A DNA stretch of 64,000 nucleotides, from assembly GCA_000787465.1 (NCBI GenBank), contig JSYX01000032.1, forward strand, positions 1 to 64,000, given 5' to 3'. Made by a program: the position numbers and the translations under genes. This document shows positions 8,923 to 52,756 of the stretch, in pieces (the stretch's first letter is position 1; every line of letters begins with the position of its first letter). A model generated the notes under the pieces. It saw nothing but the letters and a program-made list of their open reading frames with translations, was not told the origin of the DNA and ran no database searches. This stretch comes from Thermomucor indicae-seudaticae (taxonomy: Eukaryota; Mucoromycota; Mucoromycetes; Mucorales; Lichtheimiaceae).

Positions 8923-10442
8923 ATGCATTCCGGAAAGTTTCTCTTGATTATAGCACTTGTAGTGTTGTGCACGTTACTGCTTTTGACGGGAACGCATGCA
9001 AGAGGTGGGTTAGAAGAGAGAGCGAAGGGAGCCAATTCTCTAGAGTACGGTTTTTGCACTAATACAAGGGCCTTTCTTTAGTGGAAATCGTCGAAGATAT
9101 CACAACATGGACACAGGATCAACTGCAAAGCTATCTGGACAAGTACAATATCCAGTACCACTGCGATGAAGAGTCGTCTCTGGTGCAGACCGTCAAGTCC
9201 TATCGCGACGCCGTGGCGGAAAACGCAGCAATGTTTGGTGAAAAGGTGGACGCAATCACCTCTGGTCTAAAGAACAAGCTTGAAATGCAAAAGGACCTCT
9301 CAAAGAGCAATATGGATGCACTCTTGTCAGAAATACAGCATAGCTTGCGACAGCTTGAGCTTCAAGGCGAACTATCGCGCGATCGGGTCAGCCAAGCGCT
9401 CGATCGACTTCGCAAGAGAGCTATCAAGCAAAAGATCGTGACCGAAGCGCAGTGGCGTGACATTTACAATGATGTGCTCTCACCCTTCGAGAGCCAGACA
9501 TGGTATCAACGTGTCATCCACCGTTACCCAACCAATGCAGGTGCCTCAACCTCCTTGAACCGATGGCTTCAGCACGTCGCCAGCCGTCTCTTGCGAGCCA
9601 AGGACCTCACGGAAGACCAGGTTGGTAGCGTGATTGATCAGCTCCGAGCATCGCTTGGCTCCACACGCGATCTCTCGCAGCTCGGCGACAAGCACTGGTG
9701 GCACAAGTTCCAGCGCGATCTCCGGAAGCAAAACAAGCTGACGCAGGAGCAGGTCCAGAAAGTCACCGATGATCTCAGACATAACGTGAATGCCTACAAA
9801 ATCTTTGCGACAGACTACCTCGGCCGTGGCTACGACCAGGCTCAGCAATGGACTGAAGACTGGTCCAGAAGGATTCTGGATAGCGGCTACAAGACGATCG
9901 ACTGGATCTATGACTGGATGGGCGAACTGGATGCCCGACTTCGCACAATATGGCCGCCAGTCCGTCAGCTTTGGCGACGAGTGCGCCGAGAAGAAAAACA
10001 GCACCCGGTTTCGGCTTATGAGACTCTTCGGTCTGCTGCCAGCTCTGTCTCTGCAGACTGGCAAGCTTCAGCCAAGTCCGCGGCTGCGTCCGTCACTGAC
10101 GCTGCTGCCGCTTCGGCGTCATCGATTCGTGCCCAAGTCACCGATGCCGCCAACGCCTGCAGGGATTCCTTTACTCACTTTTGGCGCGATCAAGAGCGAG
10201 AAGCTTATCGTCGCTTGGGATACACGGAAGCTCAACTCGATTGGATCCAAAAGTATCTCAGCAAGGTTTTCACGGATCAAAAGTCGTTTGCAAAGGCCAA
10301 TGTGGATCAGGCTCTGCAGAATATCCGCCACTATCTGCAGGATGCGCAGGTGCAATCGCAGGCTCAAGTCCAACATCAGATCGACCAGTTGCGCTTGCAA
10401 ATCGAGGAATGGAAGACTAAACAACTCCGAGAAGCAAAATAA
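8923..10442 (+). CDS. Secreted or ER-lumen ISH1-repeat (Ish1/Msc1-like) stress protein
   Basis: Two exons (8923-9004, 9082-10442) give 480 residues. Exon 1 encodes a signal peptide or N-terminal anchor (MHSGKFLLIIALVVLCTLL, ending near THAR). The rest is helical with several ISH1-type units. Visible ones begin WTQDQLQSYLDKYNI (about residue 36), LTEDQVGSVIDQL (about 200), LTQEQVQKVTDDL (about 245) and YTEAQLDWIQKYL (about 420). The pattern of an aromatic residue, T/S-x-x-L and a following leucine helix is that of S. pombe Ish1 and yeast Msc1, stress-linked nuclear-envelope or ER proteins. An Ala/Ser-rich linker lies near residues 350-380. The large exon is more GC-rich than its surroundings. 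Family assignment is good; the exact role is not visible. Confidence 0.85.
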
Positions 10443-38155: not shown

Positions 38156-40199
38156 TGTCCTTTGCAAACTGTTTTTCTTTGGCAGCAAATTTTCCCCGTC
38201 CGCGTCACGAAATTTTTGCTTGTTTCATGCAGCCAAGCGGAAATGTGTGTCATATGCATGCGATAGTCAAGGACTGTAACGACATATTGACGGATTCGCA
38301 GAACATCAGACAAAGAACAAGTATTTTCGCGTTCAATAACGGGATCTTGTACCATTTTGCTTTCTACGGATCGTCTATTGGAAGCGCAGAACAGTGTATG
38401 GAAAGTGTTCCTGAACTTTGACAGATTTGGACCTGTATGGTTGAAAGAATCTGATGTAGCTGTGTGCAGCGTCTGACAAAGCTCAACAGCTCGTATCTTT
38501 CTATGATTCACTAAAGGATTGTATACGCCCACTACATTTATTTGGAGGCTTCACAATGATATTGCATGCATAATAAGGCTAACTGGTCAAAAGTATATGC
38601 TATATTCTTTCGGATAGTGTGTGTTCCACTTTGCATCTTCGGCTGATACGAACGCTCTTTACAGCTCTTGATATGTCAATGAAGTTATTTTTGGAGTTAT
38701 TTACAGCCTTGGACAAAGAGCACAAGGCGCACGGTATACTCCTACAGAACTCGACCTTGATGGTTTACGCATCGTAAATGGTATTCCGGAAGACTGTAGT
38801 CCACTCTTGTCACCATTTGGGTCAAACATATACTCTGTAAAGACCTTTATGGGTTCATTGAAACCTCCTTTAAACCATGTCTTTGCATGTCATTATTGTT
38901 ACCTTCTATATATACGGTCCTGAGCCCTCCCACTAGGTGTTAAGCGCGCTTTCCCTAGTCCCGGAACCCATATAAACTATGGTAAGACCTTTGATAGGCC
39001 TTCCATCGTGCAGAATCTAACACTGCGCTTAACCTTTTTCAAGTAACCGCGGTATCGGCGACCATACTAGATGCGTCGCTGCATACGTGGCATCTGAGTT
39101 TCGGCATTTGCATATTATGACGATTTGCTTCATTCGAGACCGGCTGCTGTGCAAGGATTTTGTCTTACCGGCGTTGTCACTTCCTCGGAAGGCCCCACGC
39201 ACTGCACCTTGGGCGCTAAGTGCATTGTCCCCCGGTTTACTTTCCGGCCTAATAGCTGAGACGCGCCCAGGCTGTGATACTACTATCTAACACGCCCGAG
39301 CTAACAATAAAGCACTGGATAAGCGGGCGGGCTGATGCTGTATGTTATGCCGGCCTTAAAATCCAAAAAGGGGGTGCTGCGTTCCGTTAGTTAGCTTCGT
39401 AAATTGCGCGTGTTTTGCGTTGATTGGTCAATCAATCCGTTGTCGCGATCTCGGGCGCATATCAAACCATCCTTTGAATGGCATGAAAATGTAGGACAAA
39501 ATGTTGGGTTCGATCTACGAGTGCAGAGAAGGAGTGATTTCATTCGCCGCAAATTTTAGCTTTTTCTCAAGGGGAAGCCCGCCACCCGGAGAGGAAATTA
39601 CCCGAGTCTGTGGCGCATACCGCAAGCTTTGATATGATAAGCGCTTTTTTCCTTTTGATTGATTGGGCGTCGATATGGTGTGCGGTCATGGGGTGGCCAT
39701 ACAATGGATTTTAGCGCGAAGCATTGTTAGGTTGCTTGAGGCGTATAGCTTGTTTTGATTCAGGCACAACCCGTCGTCCGTTCTCGGGATCATAGCAAGG
39801 AAAGGGACACAGACATTGATGACGCATGCACGCTCAATCTCCGTCTCGTGCATTTTCTTTCCAAAAATTTGGGTAATTTTCTGACTTATAACCTCCAAGA
39901 CAAATAAAAGAAAGTCGACTAGAAACATAACGGATTCATACGATGACGTTGTTCATGCCTGGACTTCATCCTCTTTTGTTTGAACGAAAGCAAGGGGAAA
40001 ATGGCGCGGGCCACCGATTTCCCGCCAGTGTATGCACGTAATTAAAGTTTGAAACTGGGCTAATTTACCATTTTTGCGCTAATGACCGGCCCTTTCACTT
40101 ATGGCCTTGGCATTGATGTGTCACAGTCATGTGTAAAAATAGGTCTAGTCCTGCAACGACACGGGCCGTGGCTCGTGTGAAATGCACGTCACAAAAAAC
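38156..40199. other. Long upstream region of the CipC-like gene
   Basis: No supported gene. The stretch lies between the divergent CBP3 and CipC-like genes. Inverted CCAAT-type sequence (GATTGGTCAATCAATCC) occurs at about 39420-39437 and GATTGATTGGG near 39656. A GC-rich patch (39140-39400) includes an ORF at 39087-39290 with no features. Confidence 0.4.
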
Positions 40200-40207
40200 T
40201 ATAAAAG
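40200..40207 (+). promoter_or_regulatory. TATA box of the CipC-like gene
   Basis: TATAAAAG stands 59 bp before the split start codon. The ATG at 40210 is only a few bases after this box and so should lie outside the transcript. This supports the split ATG as the true start. Confidence 0.65.
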
Positions 40208-40258
40208 AGATGGCAGCTGGCGCGCCGTCGCAACTGCATCACTTGAATATCGTTAAAC

Positions 40259-40638
40259 ATGTGAGTTATTTTTCCCTTCCTGCTGACGAAAATGGCCGCT
40301 GTTCTTACTCGTATTGGTCACTGTATAGGGGTCTCTTTGAATTCTTCGGTGAACAACACGAAAAGGTCCACTCTGGTGAACACGAGGCTAAGCTCTCTCA
40401 CGAACTGATTGCTGGTGCTGCCGCTTTTGAAGCTGCCAAGGCCTATAACGAACACTTGGAAAAGGAAGGCAAGCCCGCTGACCACGCCATGGCCAAGCAG
40501 CTCCTTGCTGGCTTCGCCGGTGCTGCCATTGACAGACTTATCGAGACCAAGGGTCTTGACTACCTCGACAAGGTTAAGGCCAAGAAGCACGCTGAGGAAC
40601 AGCTCCACAACTACTATGATAACGAGCTTGCCAACTAA
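40259..40638 (+). CDS. CipC-like protein (DUF3759), start codon split by an intron
   Basis: Two exons (40259-40260 and 40329-40638) give 103 residues. The AT at 40259-40260 joins the G after a 68-nt GTGAGT...TATAG intron to make ATG, giving MGLFEFFGEQHEK. That start matches the usual MGLF/MSxF beginning of the family. Diagnostic segments are HEAKLSHELIAGAAAFEAAK, EGKPADHAMAKQLLAGFAG and AIDRLIETKGLDYLDKVKAK. CipC proteins are small, abundant, stress- or drug-induced fungal proteins (first seen after concanamycin treatment in Aspergillus) whose biochemical role is unknown. Codon use is strongly biased, which suggests high expression. Longer frames starting at 40129 or 40210 cannot join exon 2 in the CipC frame after splicing, or precede the likely transcription start. 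Confidence 0.9.
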
Positions 40639-41151: not shown

Positions 41152-43792
<2,641 letters not shown>

Positions 43793-43804
43793 CGGTTCGC
43801 AAAG

Positions 43805-44367: not shown

Positions 44368-44675
44368 CTAATGGTGGTGGTGGTGGTCGCCAGCGACAAC
44401 GTGTGTGTCAGCATCGCGGTCGTTGCTAGTCAAAATACCGTCTTGCAAGACATTGTTGAGCTACATGAAAACGATCGGGTTAGCGAGCTTTTTTGATCAT
44501 CTCTTTAACATGACGCAAAACTAACCAGACCACTGGCGCCACCGTCGTTGTTGTTGCCGCCCACAACAACATCCTGGTCATCGTAGTAATGGTCGCCATG
44601 GTGGTGGTGGTGTCGTTCGGCGGAGACGGCAGCTGCGAAAAGAGCAAACAAAGCAACAATGGCAGAGAACTTCAT
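44368..44675 (-). CDS. Small secreted histidine-rich peptide A
   Basis: Two exons (44526-44675 and 44368-44460) split by a 65-nt phase-0 intron give 80 residues. A signal peptide MKFSAIVALFALFAAAVSA ends in a good cleavage site (VSA/E). The mature chain of about 61 residues starts ERHHHHHGDHYY, continues DVVVGGNNNDGGASGL, crosses the intron into LNNVLQDGILTSNDR and ends VVAGDHHHHH. It has no cysteine, no membrane segment after the signal, and no CaaX or GPI signal. I know no family for it. Paralogues B and C lie 2.2 and 4.3 kb upstream with the same signal peptide, intron position and ending. Function is unknown; metal binding through the histidines or a role as a secreted effector is only a guess. 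Confidence 0.85.
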
Positions 44676-44710
44676 GCTTGATGATTGATTGGTTGGTTTG
44701 GATAGAAGAG

Positions 44711-44762
44711 GATGAGTGAATATCGGTATTCTGCTGATTTGAGACGGCCCATATTTATATTT
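44711..44762 (-). promoter_or_regulatory. Conserved promoter module of gene A
   Basis: A TATA box (ATATAAATAT, 44751-44760 region) lies about 80 bp before the ATG, preceded by GGGCC. On the plus strand GATGAGTGAATATCGG (44711-44726) is shared exactly with the other two copies, as is the spacing. Confidence 0.7.
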
Positions 44763-46567
44763 TTCTTAGCTTTTACTTTCCATCAACGCTATAAGCGCTC
44801 TATGTAATAAACCTATTTCGAGGATAAATTAAAAGGAACAAACAATATCCATTTGCGATGGCTTGTCGACTCTGTCTTTCTGTCAGAACAAATGTCATGC
44901 ATACAGGAAATTCCATGGCTATGTAGGGGTACACGGGCCACCTTTACGAATGCACTTTATCCCTGTAACACGTGGGGGTTTTCACAAGACACTTCCTCAA
45001 CGTGCAGATCCGATGTTATCGCGCTTGTATCGGACAAAGTCATTGAGTAAAGCGCACCGGACCTTAGTACTATCATTTTTCTTGCTAGTGTATACAGGCC
45101 AAGACAAGTCTATCTAGAGAATATGTCCTAGTAATTTCTATTCATTGACCCTGTAAAAGTAAAAGTCTGATCGTGGTTACTGATTTTTCAGGGTCTACTG
45201 ACGAGTTATGCACCCCCCTGAAGATTAAAGTAGCCGCTTGCTATAATCGCCATCCCCGAAAAGCCAGAATGTGATCACTAAATGGGAAATATCACGTTAT
45301 AACAACTAAAGTTTGAAGAAGCGTGCGCTGTATAGATTATGCATGACATCTACATTGAATTTCGAATTGCTTGACAGTTATTGTAACACACAGCTTCGTC
45401 TTTATCTCTACGAGTATCTCGAGAACAAAAGAACTATTGGACAACGATTGTGTGATTGTTCACGATGAAGCAAAACCGACGGAACATACCGAAGTTGCTA
45501 ATTAACACGAAAGTCCCGGAAATATGTAACTCGGAGAATGCTTGTCATTGCATCTATAGTAGGATCGCTTCTGTTGCGTATCGCACCGACTATCGTTGGA
45601 ATATGTGGTAGTTTCTGCAATCTCCTTGGATGAATAATTAAACCGATGGCACTGGTATGGAGGGGCAAGTTACGGGAAACGGCTCCATAGAGCAACCGGC
45701 GAAGCTAGTCATTGGATATCGAAATACGAACAGAGAAACTGAATCGATGCAAGCAAAATAAAAGTAATGCGTCGTTTCATTGGCTTCTAGTACAGCATTA
45801 TTGGACCTCAAAATGATCATAGACAGTTACATCGAGTTAGAAAAATTGACCGTTAGCTCGAGCTGATCGCTACAAAAGAATCACCAAAGTTTGCCCGTAA
45901 CTGAAATGAGGATCCGCCTTACCCCACCATAACCTGCTATGTGCCCGTCCAAAAGAATAAGAAGCTTTGTGTTCGCGATTTCTGTCGTCTCGCTTGAGGG
46001 CATGGGTAGACATAGCGCAGACATGTAAGCTGAACGCAAATTCGATTTAGTGATATTGTCGAGCGCTTACTATAGTTAGCTCTCAGAGCGCTTTCTCTTT
46101 CAGGTCTGATATGTCACTTGTCTCTTTCCCAGAAGACCATACAAACATTAGGATCGCTCATTTGATGACTGCAGGCGTGGTAAGCGCTGGTTCACTCGAA
46201 ATATACAGAAAAACGATGATTGAAAAGAGTGAGAACCCACAGGAATGTCGGTAAGGGCGTCCGATCTTTCCTAGCAGATATCACTAAATGGAGTGCCCAT
46301 TGCAGCAGGTTTGGAAAAATCAAACTCAAGTTGCCCGACTATTTCCTCAGATTGAATGAGTTTCTCTTACTGTCAAAGAGAGCTCAAGCAGTCAACCATC
46401 ATGACGATTCGTCTCCTATGCGTTCCACAATAGTTTATAGCAGAAAGAAATGCCATTTACTTAGATAAACCTTTTTGGGAATCAAAACTAATGATTCATC
46501 TATGACTAGACAAAGAGATAAGATTCCCAAGTTCCAAATGGATGAGGAAGCGTGTTCCGAGGGTATC

Positions 46568-46852
46568 CTAATGGTGATGGTGGCGGTCGCCAGTAACAAC
46601 GACGGTGTCACCATGGCGATCTTGGCTCGTCAAGATACCGTCTTGCAAGAGACCGTTGAGCTAAATAGATAAATAAAGCGAGCGGGTTAGTGAGGCCCTT
46701 TCCAATCATCTTTTGAAGGTAATACAAAAACTTACAATGCCATTGGTGCGGCCATCGTTGTTGTTGCCACCCACAGCAACGTCATCATGGCGGTCGGCAG
46801 AGACAACAGCAGCGAAAAGAGCAAAGAGAGCAACAATAGCAGAGTACTTCAT
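46568..46852 (-). CDS. Small secreted histidine-rich peptide B
   Basis: Two exons (46736-46852 and 46568-46660), a 75-nt phase-0 intron, 69 residues. Signal peptide MKYSAIVALFALFAAVVSA, cleaved before DRHDD. The mature chain of about 50 residues has VAVGGNNNDGRTNGI, then after the intron LNGLLQDGILTSQDRHGDT, and ends VVVTGDRHHHH. No cysteines. Relative to A it lacks the HHHHHGDHYYDDQ block near the mature N-terminus. Conservation is highest in the signal peptide and in the LLQDGILTS segment; the mature N-terminus varies, a pattern common in secreted fungal peptide families. The splice donor GTAAGT is canonical. Confidence 0.86.
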
Positions 46853-46890
46853 GGTTGATGATTGTAGTGTTGTTGATGTCTATAGAAAAG

Positions 46891-46940
46891 GATGAGTGAA
46901 TATCGGTCCTTGGCTGACTCAACATGGCCCATATTTATAG
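46891..46940 (-). promoter_or_regulatory. Conserved promoter module of gene B
   Basis: The TATA box CTATAAATAT (46931-46940) lies about 80 bp before the ATG, next to GGGCCATG on its upstream side. The shared element GATGAGTGAATATCGG is at 46891-46906 on the plus strand. Confidence 0.72.
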
Positions 46941-48739
46941 TTTTGATTTTGCATGCACATGAGTTCTGTAAGCAATACAGACCAACCCATTTCGAGCATA
47001 AATAGGACAAGGAGCAAGTAATACAGCTTCGAAATGGTTTATTGATCGAACTTTTCTTTCAGAGCAAACGATGCGGATGTACAGGGAACCTTTGAATATG
47101 TAGGGGGTGCACACGGGCCACCTTCACAAATGTCACTTTATCCCTTTAGCACATGGAGTTTCCGTAAGGCTTTTCATCAGCCTCCAGCCCATTGATCCAT
47201 GCCATCGTCCTAGTTTTGAGCAACCTCGTTGAATAACATGCGGGTGACCTTAGCACTATCGTCGTTGATGCTCATGTATTGAGGGCCCAAAACAAGTCTC
47301 TTCAGAGAATGAACCCTACTAATCGCCATTTCTGGGACACTGCAAGAACAAGTCCCCTGATCGTTATTATTGATTTTTGAGTTCAGGTTCAGGGTTTATT
47401 TACCAGCCATACGCTCCTGAAGACAATAGTAGCCCCGTTACAATGATCATCCCAGGAAGACCAAACAAGGGTGATCCTTGGATGGAAATGTCACTAGATA
47501 CATCGACTCTGCAATTATGGAAGCACACAGCTTTGTTATTTCTAACAGCAATTCAATGGCAAGTGAATTCAGCAGCTATCATGTCATTGAAACAAGCTGA
47601 TTAAACATGTTGACTTCACTGCATATCTACATGGAAACCTAGCAAAGACGCAATGTGGAAACGAATCCGGATAACGCTTGCTAATCATACCCAGTATTGC
47701 TTACTATTCAATATTGCATCATAGTGCCACGGCTGTCACTGGAATATGCAGCATCTTCGCAAACACTCGAGAAGGATCTAACTGACCTCATTGGTAGGGA
47801 ATGAAAAGGCTAGGGGAAACTAGGCTTCGTGGCTACCGGCGAAACCTTGTTATTGGGGAAATCAGGATACAAGAGAGGGACTTGGATAATCAAACGAAGC
47901 ATAACAAGAGAAATCCGTCATCCCATTGTTAGCACGATTGACCGTTAGATTGAGCTGATCGCTCCAAAACCAACATCGCCGACCATTGTATAGTTTCCGC
48001 GAATGCATTCCGACTAAAATGCCGTAAGATTCGCGATGTATCATATGCTTCTACGCCCGGAGTGCGGGCATCCGAGTATTCGGTTCAGGGCATCTCGCCC
48101 TGGTCAGTAAGACTATTCTAATTAGCCAGTAAACACAGCTTAGACTCTGGTGGACACCCCAGTTGGAGTTATTTGTTTTGTTCACTCGTCCTGGCGTGAA
48201 TGACTTGGAAGCATCGCAACTGCCACGGCTGACTTTCACGCGCTCATCTCAACGTGCTTAATGCGGAAAACACGCTCAAAATGGTTGTTTGGTGCTCGAT
48301 CCAGCCGATAAAGGAGAAAGCTTATGCACTTAGAAGATATCTCAAGATCGCTTATTTCAGAGTGATGAATGTAGACCATGGTTAGAGCGGTCGCTTATCC
48401 GACAATCCGACCGAGCGAAAAGCATGCAAGGACCTGGCAGCCCAGTCAATGCGACTTGGAGATATTGAACCTGGAGATTGAGCGTCCCGAACCAAGAGAC
48501 ATTCCCGATATTCGTAGCAAACCAAGTTACTAAACTCTTCCTTCAACTTCCTAGCATGTCCAAAAGAACTCCAATAGACAATCATCAATCGTAAAAATAT
48601 ATAGTAGGGAGAAAGTAAATCGTGTATTTTTTCGACAAAAGAAACCTATTGGACATCAGGACTAGCTATTACTAAAGCCAGACAGGTATTCTCAAGTCCC
48701 GTATGAGCAAGGAAGAGTGCTCCGTGGGGGGAGAGGGTC

Positions 48740-49020
48740 CTAATGGTGGTCGCCATTGACAACGTGGGTGTCACCTTCACGGTGGGTGCTGGTCAAAAGA
48801 CCATCTTCCAAGAGATCGTTGAGCTAAATGAATGAATAAATAAATGTCGTGTTAATGAGGTCCTTTTCCAATGCATCTCTTGCAAGGTAATACAGAAACG
48901 TACAAGGCCACTGGCATGACCGTCGTTGTTGTTACCGCTCACAGAAATATCGTCCTCGCCGCCAGCGGAGACAACAGCAGCGAAAAGAGCAAAGAGAGCA
49001 ACAATAGCAGAGTACTTCAT
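48740..49020 (-). CDS. Small secreted peptide C
   Basis: Two exons (48904-49020 and 48740-48823), an 80-nt phase-0 intron, 66 residues. Its signal peptide is identical in protein to that of B. The mature chain of about 47 residues is GGEDDISVSGNNNDGHASGL, then LNDLLEDGLLTSTHREGDT after the intron, ending VVNGDHH. It is more acidic than A and B and keeps only two terminal histidines, so a long histidine tail is not needed in all copies. No cysteine. The donor is GTACGT, the weakest of the three but at the same position. Confidence 0.85.
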
Positions 49021-49058: not shown

Positions 49059-49108
49059 GATGAGTGAATATCGGTCCTTGGCTGGCTCAACATGGCCCAT
49101 ATTTATAT
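49059..49108 (-). promoter_or_regulatory. Conserved promoter module of gene C
   Basis: The TATA box (ATATAAATAT, about 49099-49108) lies about 80 bp before the ATG. GATGAGTGAATATCGG is at 49059-49074. The B and C leaders are nearly identical from the ATG to the TATA box. Confidence 0.72.
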
Positions 49109-49510
49109 CTGCGACGTTTGCTTTACATCGGCTCGATAAGCGGAAGAAGCCGAACCATTCTAAGGATATATTAAATTCAACGAGGGGCAAACGATCTACT
49201 TCAAAATGTGTCTTTCGGCAGAAATGAAGTTCATGGATATGCAGGCTATGTAGGGAGCACACGGGCCATCTTCTAATGTACTTTATTCCCGGGGCACGTA
49301 CAGTCTCCACAAGACTCTCTGACTATATACAGATTCATTCATTGTCTTATGCCACCTTGCTCGCTTTAAGCAATGTCATTGAAGAAAACGGTTGATCTTA
49401 GTACTACCGTCTTTCTTGTAGTGTATACAGGTTAAACAAAGAGTGAATCCCAATAATTGCGATACTTTGGCCCCCCTGACCGTTGTTATTGAACTTTAAG
49501 ATTAGTTCTG

Positions 49511-50028: not shown

Positions 50029-52756
50029 TTAACATGCTGGAAGGTAAGACCTACACACCGGACACTCCAGTTTTATCCGCATCCACTATTATAAAAACAG
50101 AACGAACAGGATTAGACAGTTTTGCCATGTTCAGTTTCAAACTTGGAGACTTTACCCTCTCCAGACATTCAGTGTGGAATAAGTGCTGGCAAGGCGTCAA
50201 CATATACTGCGCTCTGCCCAATACATTCAGACCAGCAGGACCGGCAGGAGTTGTGTCCACGGGAAGCATACATATAGCACAGTCTCGCGGATGTAACCTT
50301 AAAGGCCCATTATCGCTCTGACCATGTCCGGTTTCTTCGTCGTCAGCTGGGAGGATTGGATGGTAGTTATATGTCTGCGGAAGGTACTATACGAAGATAT
50401 CGTAAGCAAAATATCTTGAAAACAATAGTACTTGGTAATCACCTTTTCAGGAACGAAAAACCTTGGACCCAGAGCGTCCTGCAGGAAAAGTATAATGACT
50501 TGGAGTGCAACATATGCAACCAAGAGCCAAACCCATGGTGATGGCTCTCGACCGATCACATTGTACGGACATGCGTAGAAGTCTGACAGAAAGCACATAG
50601 TCAACTTATGGTCTATTGCGACGGTGGTACAAACTTACATAGCGGTATTGCAAGCCTTGTTATACTCATTCCAAGCACATACCGGCGGCTTAATGGGCGT
50701 CGACAGCCTCGCAAAACGTTTCTCATAATTTGTGGTATCCAAAATGAATGGAAGCCAAGTCCAAGCACGAAGGTAATGAGGTTTTGCACGAACGCAGAGC
50801 GGATCTCTGTCTGGTAGAACAGGAAAAGCCCGAATAGCAGAAGAGCATCTTCATATTGAGACGTGAAAGGTTATACTTCATCCTCAATAAAAGATATATC
50901 AGACACTTACAAAGTCGATAGTATATGGAGCTGATGTCCCGTCGCGGATCAGGGGCAGTTGGCGAAGGTCTGGCTGGCTGTTGACTATTAGCGAGAGGCA
51001 GAATAGGCTCTTGCTGGCTCCGCGTCTCGTTGTTATTCTCCTCTGACGAAGACCGCAAGCTTTCTGGGCGTTGAATCCTCCAAATGACCAAAAGATACCG
51101 CATACCGAATACTGCAACGAGAAGAAAGTTGAAGAATGCAGCAGCAGCAAATGGCAAGAAAACAGTTTCAATAACCACGCCCGTCGTCAAATGCAACAAA
51201 CAAAGGTAGCTGTCCATCATTGCTTGCATGGCGATGGTCCAGTAGGATACATTGGAAACGCTCTGGTTGGAGTTACCAGTTACCTTGAATGTAATAATAA
51301 CAAAGTGTACTTTTTAAGGACTTACCGAGGGTGTGGGCGTAAATTCCATTTGATGAATGAGCACTGATATCTGTATCAAAGCCAACACAATTGCCATGGC
51401 GGCATATGATATTGCTTTACTGTAGTATTTCTCGATTTTTGTTCCTTCGCCGTCTTTGACAGCAAGGGACAAACCGCAATTATGCGAGTACATCATCATA
51501 GAGATCTCGGGCGACGGCGGACTGATAGTACTCACACCTTGCGGGTTCTCCAACTCTGTGAGTACAAATGGCCGTATTAGAATAAGAATTGATGGTGTTA
51601 TTCACTCAGGCACCCAACCTTTTTCATATTCTAATAGCTGCCAAAGTTTGATATCGCTCGGTAGTGGATGTAGTTGTCCGAATATTTGAAACACACAATC
51701 GAAAGCTACCGACATTGGTCGATCTGCGTAACAATAACCGACTCTATCAGCACATTCTCTGAAAAAGTCTGTTTGATAGGAATACCATGGTCATCAACGG
51801 TTTGGCTTCCCCATGCTGCCATTTCGTCCAATTCATCAATGCGTTGCTCTATTTGTTCAAACAGCACCGATCTCGCTTGAATCATAGACTCGTTACTGGG
51901 CAGCATGTGCAACAAGTCTATAGAGCGGAAGGCCGTGCTACGGGAATGGCATTTAGCATTTCTCTCAATGAATAGGTTTGCAATGGATTGCTTACCCATC
52001 TGGAACGCCCATCACATATATCGTACCGTTACTCAGGAAATGGACGCCTTCCGCCAGCAGTAAGGCGCCATAACCACCCTTCGCATCATCTTTTAGTCTT
52101 AAATAGCCCTACAGACAGAGACGTCAGTGCCACGAAACGCCTCATACAGCAAAGCCAGACTGACAAAGCGAATATTACCTCGATGTAATTTACGGCGTCA
52201 TCCTTCGTCTTTGTCGATTTAACATTAAATGTAAACGAGCCCTCCCCTGTGGATTCGAAAAAGCTACCGCGAGCTTCTTGCTGCGCAGTGATGTTACTAG
52301 CCTTATCGTCGTGTGGCACGGTGACATTATGGTTGGTAAAGTGACCTGTCACGGCAATAGAGAGCGTTTAGAACAAAGAGAGACAAAGACCCATACAGAC
52401 TCTTCTAACGCAATACCTCGGAAGACTCCGGTGATGTTGTGGTAAAAGCGGGAATTCGGTCCTTGAGTGGCAATCGCTCCAAGTTCGCTCAGTTGCGACT
52501 CTAAACTTGTTGGTAAAGGCTAGGTACACAACCGATAAGCTGAATGTATACCAAATGCTCCAAGAGGTAAGAACCTTCTTACGTGAGTGACATTAACACC
52601 AAAGGTGACATTTCCAAGCGCTTCTTTCTCATGACGAAGGCTGTCAAGTACATCTTCAATCGTTGGTCTTCCTTGCCGAGCTGCCTCGTCCTCAGAAAAG
52701 TTTATGAACAATAAAGAAAGGACAAAAAGTAGCAAGTAGAACGTGGACCGATTCAT
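50029..52756 (-). CDS. TUL1: TUL1/Dsc1-type transmembrane RING E3 ubiquitin ligase
   Basis: Many exons from ATG 52756 to the stop at 50029. The first exon encodes a signal peptide (MNRSTFYLLLFVLSLLFINF); an in-frame ATG at 52798 would put 14 polar residues before it. The lumenal part contains GNVTFGVNVTH, FTNHNVTVPHDD and SNGTIYVMGVPD-like beta-rich sequence. Hydrophobic multi-span segments lie at about 50500-51450. The C-terminal RING-H2 is complete: DCAICMLPVD, then MLTPCQHLFHTECLER, an intron, and WMRIKLECPVCRSYLPAC at the very end. Tul1 acts in the Golgi or endosome Dsc complex, which ubiquitinates misfolded membrane proteins and, in fission yeast, activates SREBP. The RING and the domain order support the call; central exons were not fully resolved. 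Confidence 0.88.

Follow-up and report, generated by a model that had tools for sequence, protein, structure and literature searches.

A tandem gene array in Thermomucor indicae-seudaticae points to an undescribed Mucorales family of small secreted-looking proteins

Results

A three-gene array and its paralogs

The stretch analysed here (the window) covers positions 1 to 64,000 of contig C31 (JSYX01000032.1) in the 24.77 Mb, 735-contig assembly of Thermomucor indicae-seudaticae, and its minus strand carries three tandem genes, termed g1, g2, and g3, for small proteins that look secreted. The gene g1 (44368..44675, 80 amino acids (aa)) consists of exon 1 at 44675-44526, a 65-nt intron at 44525-44461, and exon 2 at 44460-44368. 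The corresponding parts of g2 (46568..46852, 69 aa) lie at 46852-46736, 46735-46661 (75-nt intron), and 46660-46568, and those of g3 (48740..49020, 66 aa) at 49020-48904, 48903-48824 (80-nt intron), and 48823-48740. All three introns are in phase 0, with the donors GTTAGT, GTAAGT, and GTACGT, respectively, TAG acceptors, and branch-like sequences (CTAAC, CTAAC, and TTAAC) located 23-32 nt before the intron end. Over the 19 residues of the signal region g2 and g3 are identical, while g1 matches at 89%. A previous sequence-only reading had proposed three two-exon genes of these lengths on one strand, with near-identical signal peptides and a phase-0 intron at a shared place, and each of these features was recovered, the strand and the exon-intron coordinates now being set.

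At least five further paralogs were found in the same genome (two divergent genes on contig C288, two tandem genes on C50, here C50a and C50b, and one on C223), giving at least eight members in total. The phase-0 intron lies inside a conserved core, after (S)G(L/I), in 7/8 genes including g1-g3. The eighth, the plus-strand gene on C288, is intronless and reads uninterrupted through the predicted exon junction, which supports the splice of g1-g3. In order to assess how often secreted-looking starts occur, a crude rule (a hydrophobic N-terminal stretch, Lys/Arg/Gln near the start, and a small-residue pair at about positions 15-24) was applied to all 592 ATG positions of the window that open at least 40 codons, nested ones being counted separately. 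Three passed, and these were g1, g2, and g3; the rule was chosen with the family in view, and a stricter earlier version passed none. Given the further paralogs, this outcome, and the first-round profile matches described below, the array is not a product of chance, and g1-g3 are confirmed, as far as prediction from sequence goes, as genuine genes of one family.

C50 (1761-2666) and C223 (1263-2152) share a diverged duplicate segment that carries a family gene (approximately 0.8 kb at 82% identity plus 89 nt at 85%), together with a neighbouring gene end that we take, by eye, to be of RRP5 type.

Protein anatomy

The members are built from a signal-like N-terminal segment, a short variable mature N-terminus, the core, and a variable tail, which in Thermomucor is acidic and rich in His. 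The core has the form GGNNxGxxSGLLNNxLxxGLLT and is split midway by the intron in most of the Thermomucor genes. Within it, the Gly, Asn, and Gly of G-x2-N-x5-G are invariant in 33/33 aligned rows, including g1-g3, and three more positions are conserved in 30-31 of them. The best N-terminal 12-residue Kyte-Doolittle mean lies between 2.28 and 3.12 in 33/33 rows, whereas no mature part exceeds 1.54. In all eight Thermomucor members the predicted mature part is 47-61 aa long, carries a net charge of -3 to -11 and 4-12 His, and contains no Cys. One core per protein was seen by eye, except in the relative P0001, which has two tandem cores with IQC after each and could be a two-domain, Cys-bearing form. 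In AlphaFold models of two relatives the core is covered by a short helix, predicted with low confidence.

Relatives in other Mucorales

A profile search, proposed in the sequence-only reading as a check on the mature peptides, was run in three rounds (E thresholds of 0.01, 10, and 10) and returned 2, 8, and 29 proteins, reaching hypothetical proteins of four Mucorales genera and no described family. In the first round, when the profile held only the Thermomucor sequences, the matches were P0001 (E 6.9e-16) and a protein of Syncephalastrum racemosum (E 3.2e-4). The last round drew on Syncephalastrum racemosum (7 proteins), Fennellomyces sp. T-0311 (7), Radiomyces spectabilis (8), and Apophysomyces ossiformis (2), all of them Mucorales, with the other five tagged lgn/ena; its two weakest matches, P0029 (E 0.0047) and P0030 (E 0.064), are of uncertain standing. 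As the prefilter demands shared 5-residue words, missing matches from Rhizopus, Mucor, or other genera are no proof of absence. A prokaryote genome scan with 25 relatives gave 36 pattern matches, none of which was confirmed.

Five of the retrieved proteins (P0006, P0024, P0027, P0028, and P0030) appear by eye to be intron read-through fragments that diverge at the shared intron residue, P0006 being a copy of exon 1 and the intron start of the minus-strand gene on C288. These were excluded from alignments A4 and A5 and from the tree, as was P0001 from the tree, and P0029 was retained despite its E-value. In the resulting tree (32 rows, 73 columns) copies from one genus mostly fall together (5 label changes, with a minimum of 4 and a shuffled mean of 19.2), with 11/29 inner branches drawn open and much of the topology weakly supported, including the pairing of C50a with a Fennellomyces protein. 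Locus tags that lie close together, on contigs of identical length, suggest gene clusters in Fennellomyces (6/7 members) and Radiomyces (7/8).

Among the closest relatives are the hypothetical proteins BCR43DRAFT_482770 (Syncephalastrum racemosum), BJV82DRAFT_673721 (Fennellomyces sp. T-0311), BYT42DRAFT_618686 (Radiomyces spectabilis), and EC973_008180 (Apophysomyces ossiformis), which share the signal-like segment, the G-x2-N-x5-G core, the small size, and the presence of multiple copies per genome. They differ in their tails, which vary by genus: at least five Radiomyces members end in QDAF and those of Fennellomyces hold 0-1 His. The database names seen did not go beyond "hypothetical", "uncharacterized", or automatic-looking labels, and the very annotation of members in four genera contradicts the expectation that such genes are too short for ordinary ORF callers.

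Known families

No match exceeded the curated cut-offs of Pfam (six of the eight Thermomucor members and 25 related ones) or NCBIfam (the 25), and profile searches against PDB with the same two sets gave no credible match, so that the initial impression of no known family holds against these libraries. Chance-level library matches were not used as evidence (DIM, 0.011; NprX, 0.013; Sulfate_transp, 0.023; and FapC amyloid, 0.018, in 2/25 members). Among the matches listed for literature on Mucorales small secreted proteins, effectors, or secretomes, or on Syncephalastrum racemosum effectors, no title dealt with this family. The IGY-motif family of fungal small secreted proteins, described from Dikarya (PMC4367982), is similar in being multigene, small, secreted, and marked by a short conserved motif, a likeness that extends to its description only. 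Taken from sequence, g1-g3 very probably belong to an undescribed Mucorales family of small secreted-looking proteins.

Age of the copies and selection

Synonymous differences (pS) between the tandem copies amount to 0.32-0.42 in the core, and their matching stretches are 69-84% identical at the DNA level. The copies are tandem, as the sequence-only reading had it, but by these figures not recent. The same reading saw a conserved signal followed by a varying mature part, which applies inside the array and fails across all pairs of the eight genes, where the core is best conserved (62% vs. 50% for the signal). Ratios of nonsynonymous to synonymous change (dN/dS, all point estimates) between g1, g2, and g3 were 0-0.17 for the signal, 0.29-0.44 for the core, and 0.45-0.52 for the C-terminal tail; in the mature N-terminus, with only five aligned codons, the ratio was 1.09 for g1/g3 and the other two pairs were saturated. 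Between C50b and C223, where changes are few, the core gave 0.40, the tail 0.84, the mature N-terminus 0.22, and the signal slice, which there includes three residues beyond the predicted cleavage, 1.69. As far as core and tail of g1-g3 are concerned, these estimates (0.29-0.52) lend no support to an arms race.

Promoters and an upstream element

TATA boxes were located on the minus strand at 44753..44759 (g1, 84 nt before the ATG), 46933..46939 (g2, 87 nt), and 49101..49107 (g3, 87 nt). A TATAWAW occurs 59-87 nt before the ATG in 7/8 family genes, compared to 2.8% of random 107-nt segments of the window; the C223 gene has one at -412 only. Further upstream, and also on the minus strand, the element GGTGGCCCGTG was found at 44932..44942 (g1) and 47112..47122 (g2), with a one-mismatch version (GATGGCCCGTG) at 49260..49270 (g3). 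The genome contains 16 GGTGGCCCGTG sites, compared to 6 for a control pattern, and four of the 16 sit 221-270 nt upstream of g1, g2, C50b, and C223, in reversed orientation in the last two; none was found upstream of C50a or either C288 gene. This association was noticed post hoc and amounts to about two independent cases, since g1-g3 and C50b/C223 are duplicates.

Genomic neighbourhood

Downstream of g1 lies a helicase gene (42014-43804, minus strand), presumably Prp43-like, with HA2 and helicase C domains in the frame 42014-42880 and no Pfam match in the frame 43056-43430. Upstream of the array, a RING finger frame (50054-50386) and a transmembrane E3 ligase/DUF2921 frame (50726-51313) apparently form one minus-strand gene (50054-51313), which we assume to be Tul1/Dsc-like. 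Elsewhere in the window, the plus strand carries a DUF3759 gene (40120-40635; PF12585, E 1e-36) and a long open frame (9063-10439) whose apolipoprotein-like and Ish1 matches are weak and stay under the cut-off. Matches to the CotH family, which is linked to Mucoromycota, occur at 11 places on contigs C70, C199, C211, C304, and C460.

Discussion

We favour, with a probability of roughly 0.4, the reading that the family consists of inducible peptides that may be extracellular or surface-located and act through the core. This view draws on the at least eight paralogs, the relatives in four genera, the Gly/Asn/Gly that is invariant in every aligned row, the dN/dS values under 1 that the tandem copies show for core and tail, the TATAWAW in most promoters, the GGTGGCCCGTG sites, the clustering by genus, and the short core helix in the two low-confidence models. 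The genes would be turned on under particular conditions, and the signal would be cut off in the endoplasmic reticulum, leaving a mature peptide of 47-61 aa, Cys-free in this species, that would be largely unstructured alone and would act outside the cell or at its surface. The Gly/Asn/Leu core might form a short helix upon meeting a partner, be it the cell wall, a membrane, or the peptide itself. The tails would adjust charge and, in this genome, possibly metal binding. Several copies would then provide dose or different tails, and not the means for an arms race.

Several observations weigh against this picture. The family as a whole does not share the acidic, Cys-free, and His-rich chemistry: of the 25 relatives, three are non-acidic (22 acidic, two neutral, and P0001 at +2), four hold 2 Cys, and His numbers range from 0 to 9 among them, with 0-1 in 7/7 Fennellomyces and 4/8 Radiomyces members. 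The structure models are weak (mean predicted local distance difference test scores of 54 and 59, predicted template modelling scores of 0.21 and 0.28), and an amphipathic core helix was rejected, as its moment is not above that of shuffled versions of the same core segment (median p 0.24, 33 rows). About eight of the 12 other GGTGGCCCGTG sites fall, by eye, within coding-looking frames, so the element points to no pathway, and the attempt to reach a function through the genes that share it was abandoned.

Secreted effectors or toxins directed against another organism (host, amoeba, bacterium, or competing fungus) are possible, though we consider them unlikely. Such a role would fit small secreted-looking tandem proteins with lineage-wise expansion and a variable mature N-terminus, where g1/g3 exceed a ratio of 1 on their five codons, and two Syncephalastrum relatives (P0005 and P0011) bear the database name "RxLR effector protein", an automatic-looking name that counts here as a label alone. 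Against it stand the low ratios that g1-g3 show in core and tail, the C50b/C223 values for core, tail, and signal slice with their few changes, and the acidic, Cys-free composition of the Thermomucor members, which sets them apart from cationic antimicrobial peptides and from disulphide toxins. The former are rejected on the charge of all eight members, and only one of the 25 relatives is positive. What remains of the effector, toxin, or antimicrobial pattern initially proposed is the small secreted-looking tandem family; fast diversification is unsupported in core and tail, and a cationic peptide is unlikely.

It is rather unlikely that the peptides bind extracellular Cu, Ni, or Zn, chelating the metal by their His tails and, in some copies, by a His at mature position 3, an arrangement that we take to be ATCUN-like (amino-terminal Cu- and Ni-binding). 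The His content of all eight mature parts is in line with this idea, as are the N-termini ERH, DRH, LPH, and LPH that follow from the predicted cleavage in four of them. These four, however, represent two sets of close paralogs, a His at this position occurs in just 2/25 relatives under a crude cleavage rule, and no metal-transporter gene was recognised beside the array, where the Pfam-matched neighbours are the helicase, the RING/transmembrane E3 ligase, and a peptidase. As the His-poor Fennellomyces and Radiomyces members show that His-richness is not family-wide, metal binding is rejected as a function of the whole family and would be at most a lineage-specific addition.

A more speculative and improbable version of a surface role is a Mucorales-specific self-assembling peptide on sporangiophores or spores, comparable in role to the Cys-rich hydrophobins of Dikarya. 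It is equally improbable that, in such a coat, the Gly/Asn/Leu core would drive assembly at the wall-air interface, with the charged or His-rich tails pointing outward. Hydrophobins, repellents, and chaplins are short secreted surface peptides, and what they have in common with the g1-g3 family is size and secretion alone. No hydrophobin or chaplin Pfam match was obtained at E up to 1 (6 Thermomucor and 25 related members), and a genome search for PF01185 gave none either but is uninformative, the controls being silent too. Hydrophobins carry an 8-Cys region (PMC6784888), in contrast to the Cys-free mature parts in 8/8 Thermomucor members, which rules out hydrophobin identity. The same text reports them as previously described in Dikarya only, with Caulochytrium and Mortierella as the first exceptions (single-cell genomics, PMC6784888), which would leave room for a different coat on the aerial structures of Mucorales.

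Least probable of all is a pheromone-like precursor of a processed signalling peptide, which the short secreted-looking proteins with a conserved inner segment and the dibasic pairs seen by eye in some relatives (e.g., P0003, P0018, P0020, and P0023) might recall, but 0/8 Thermomucor members have a dibasic Kex2-type site after residue 16, and a single core per protein is the rule outside P0001.

Under the favoured reading of a core-acting extracellular or surface peptide, as under its alternatives, a raw genome window has yielded a predicted family marked by a clear motif, an intron in common, and a promoter signature. Its relatives span four genera, and the copies of Pfam and NCBIfam searched hold no model for it. 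The family supplies a ready annotation profile as well as a concrete candidate for research on what Mucorales secrete and carry on their cell surface.

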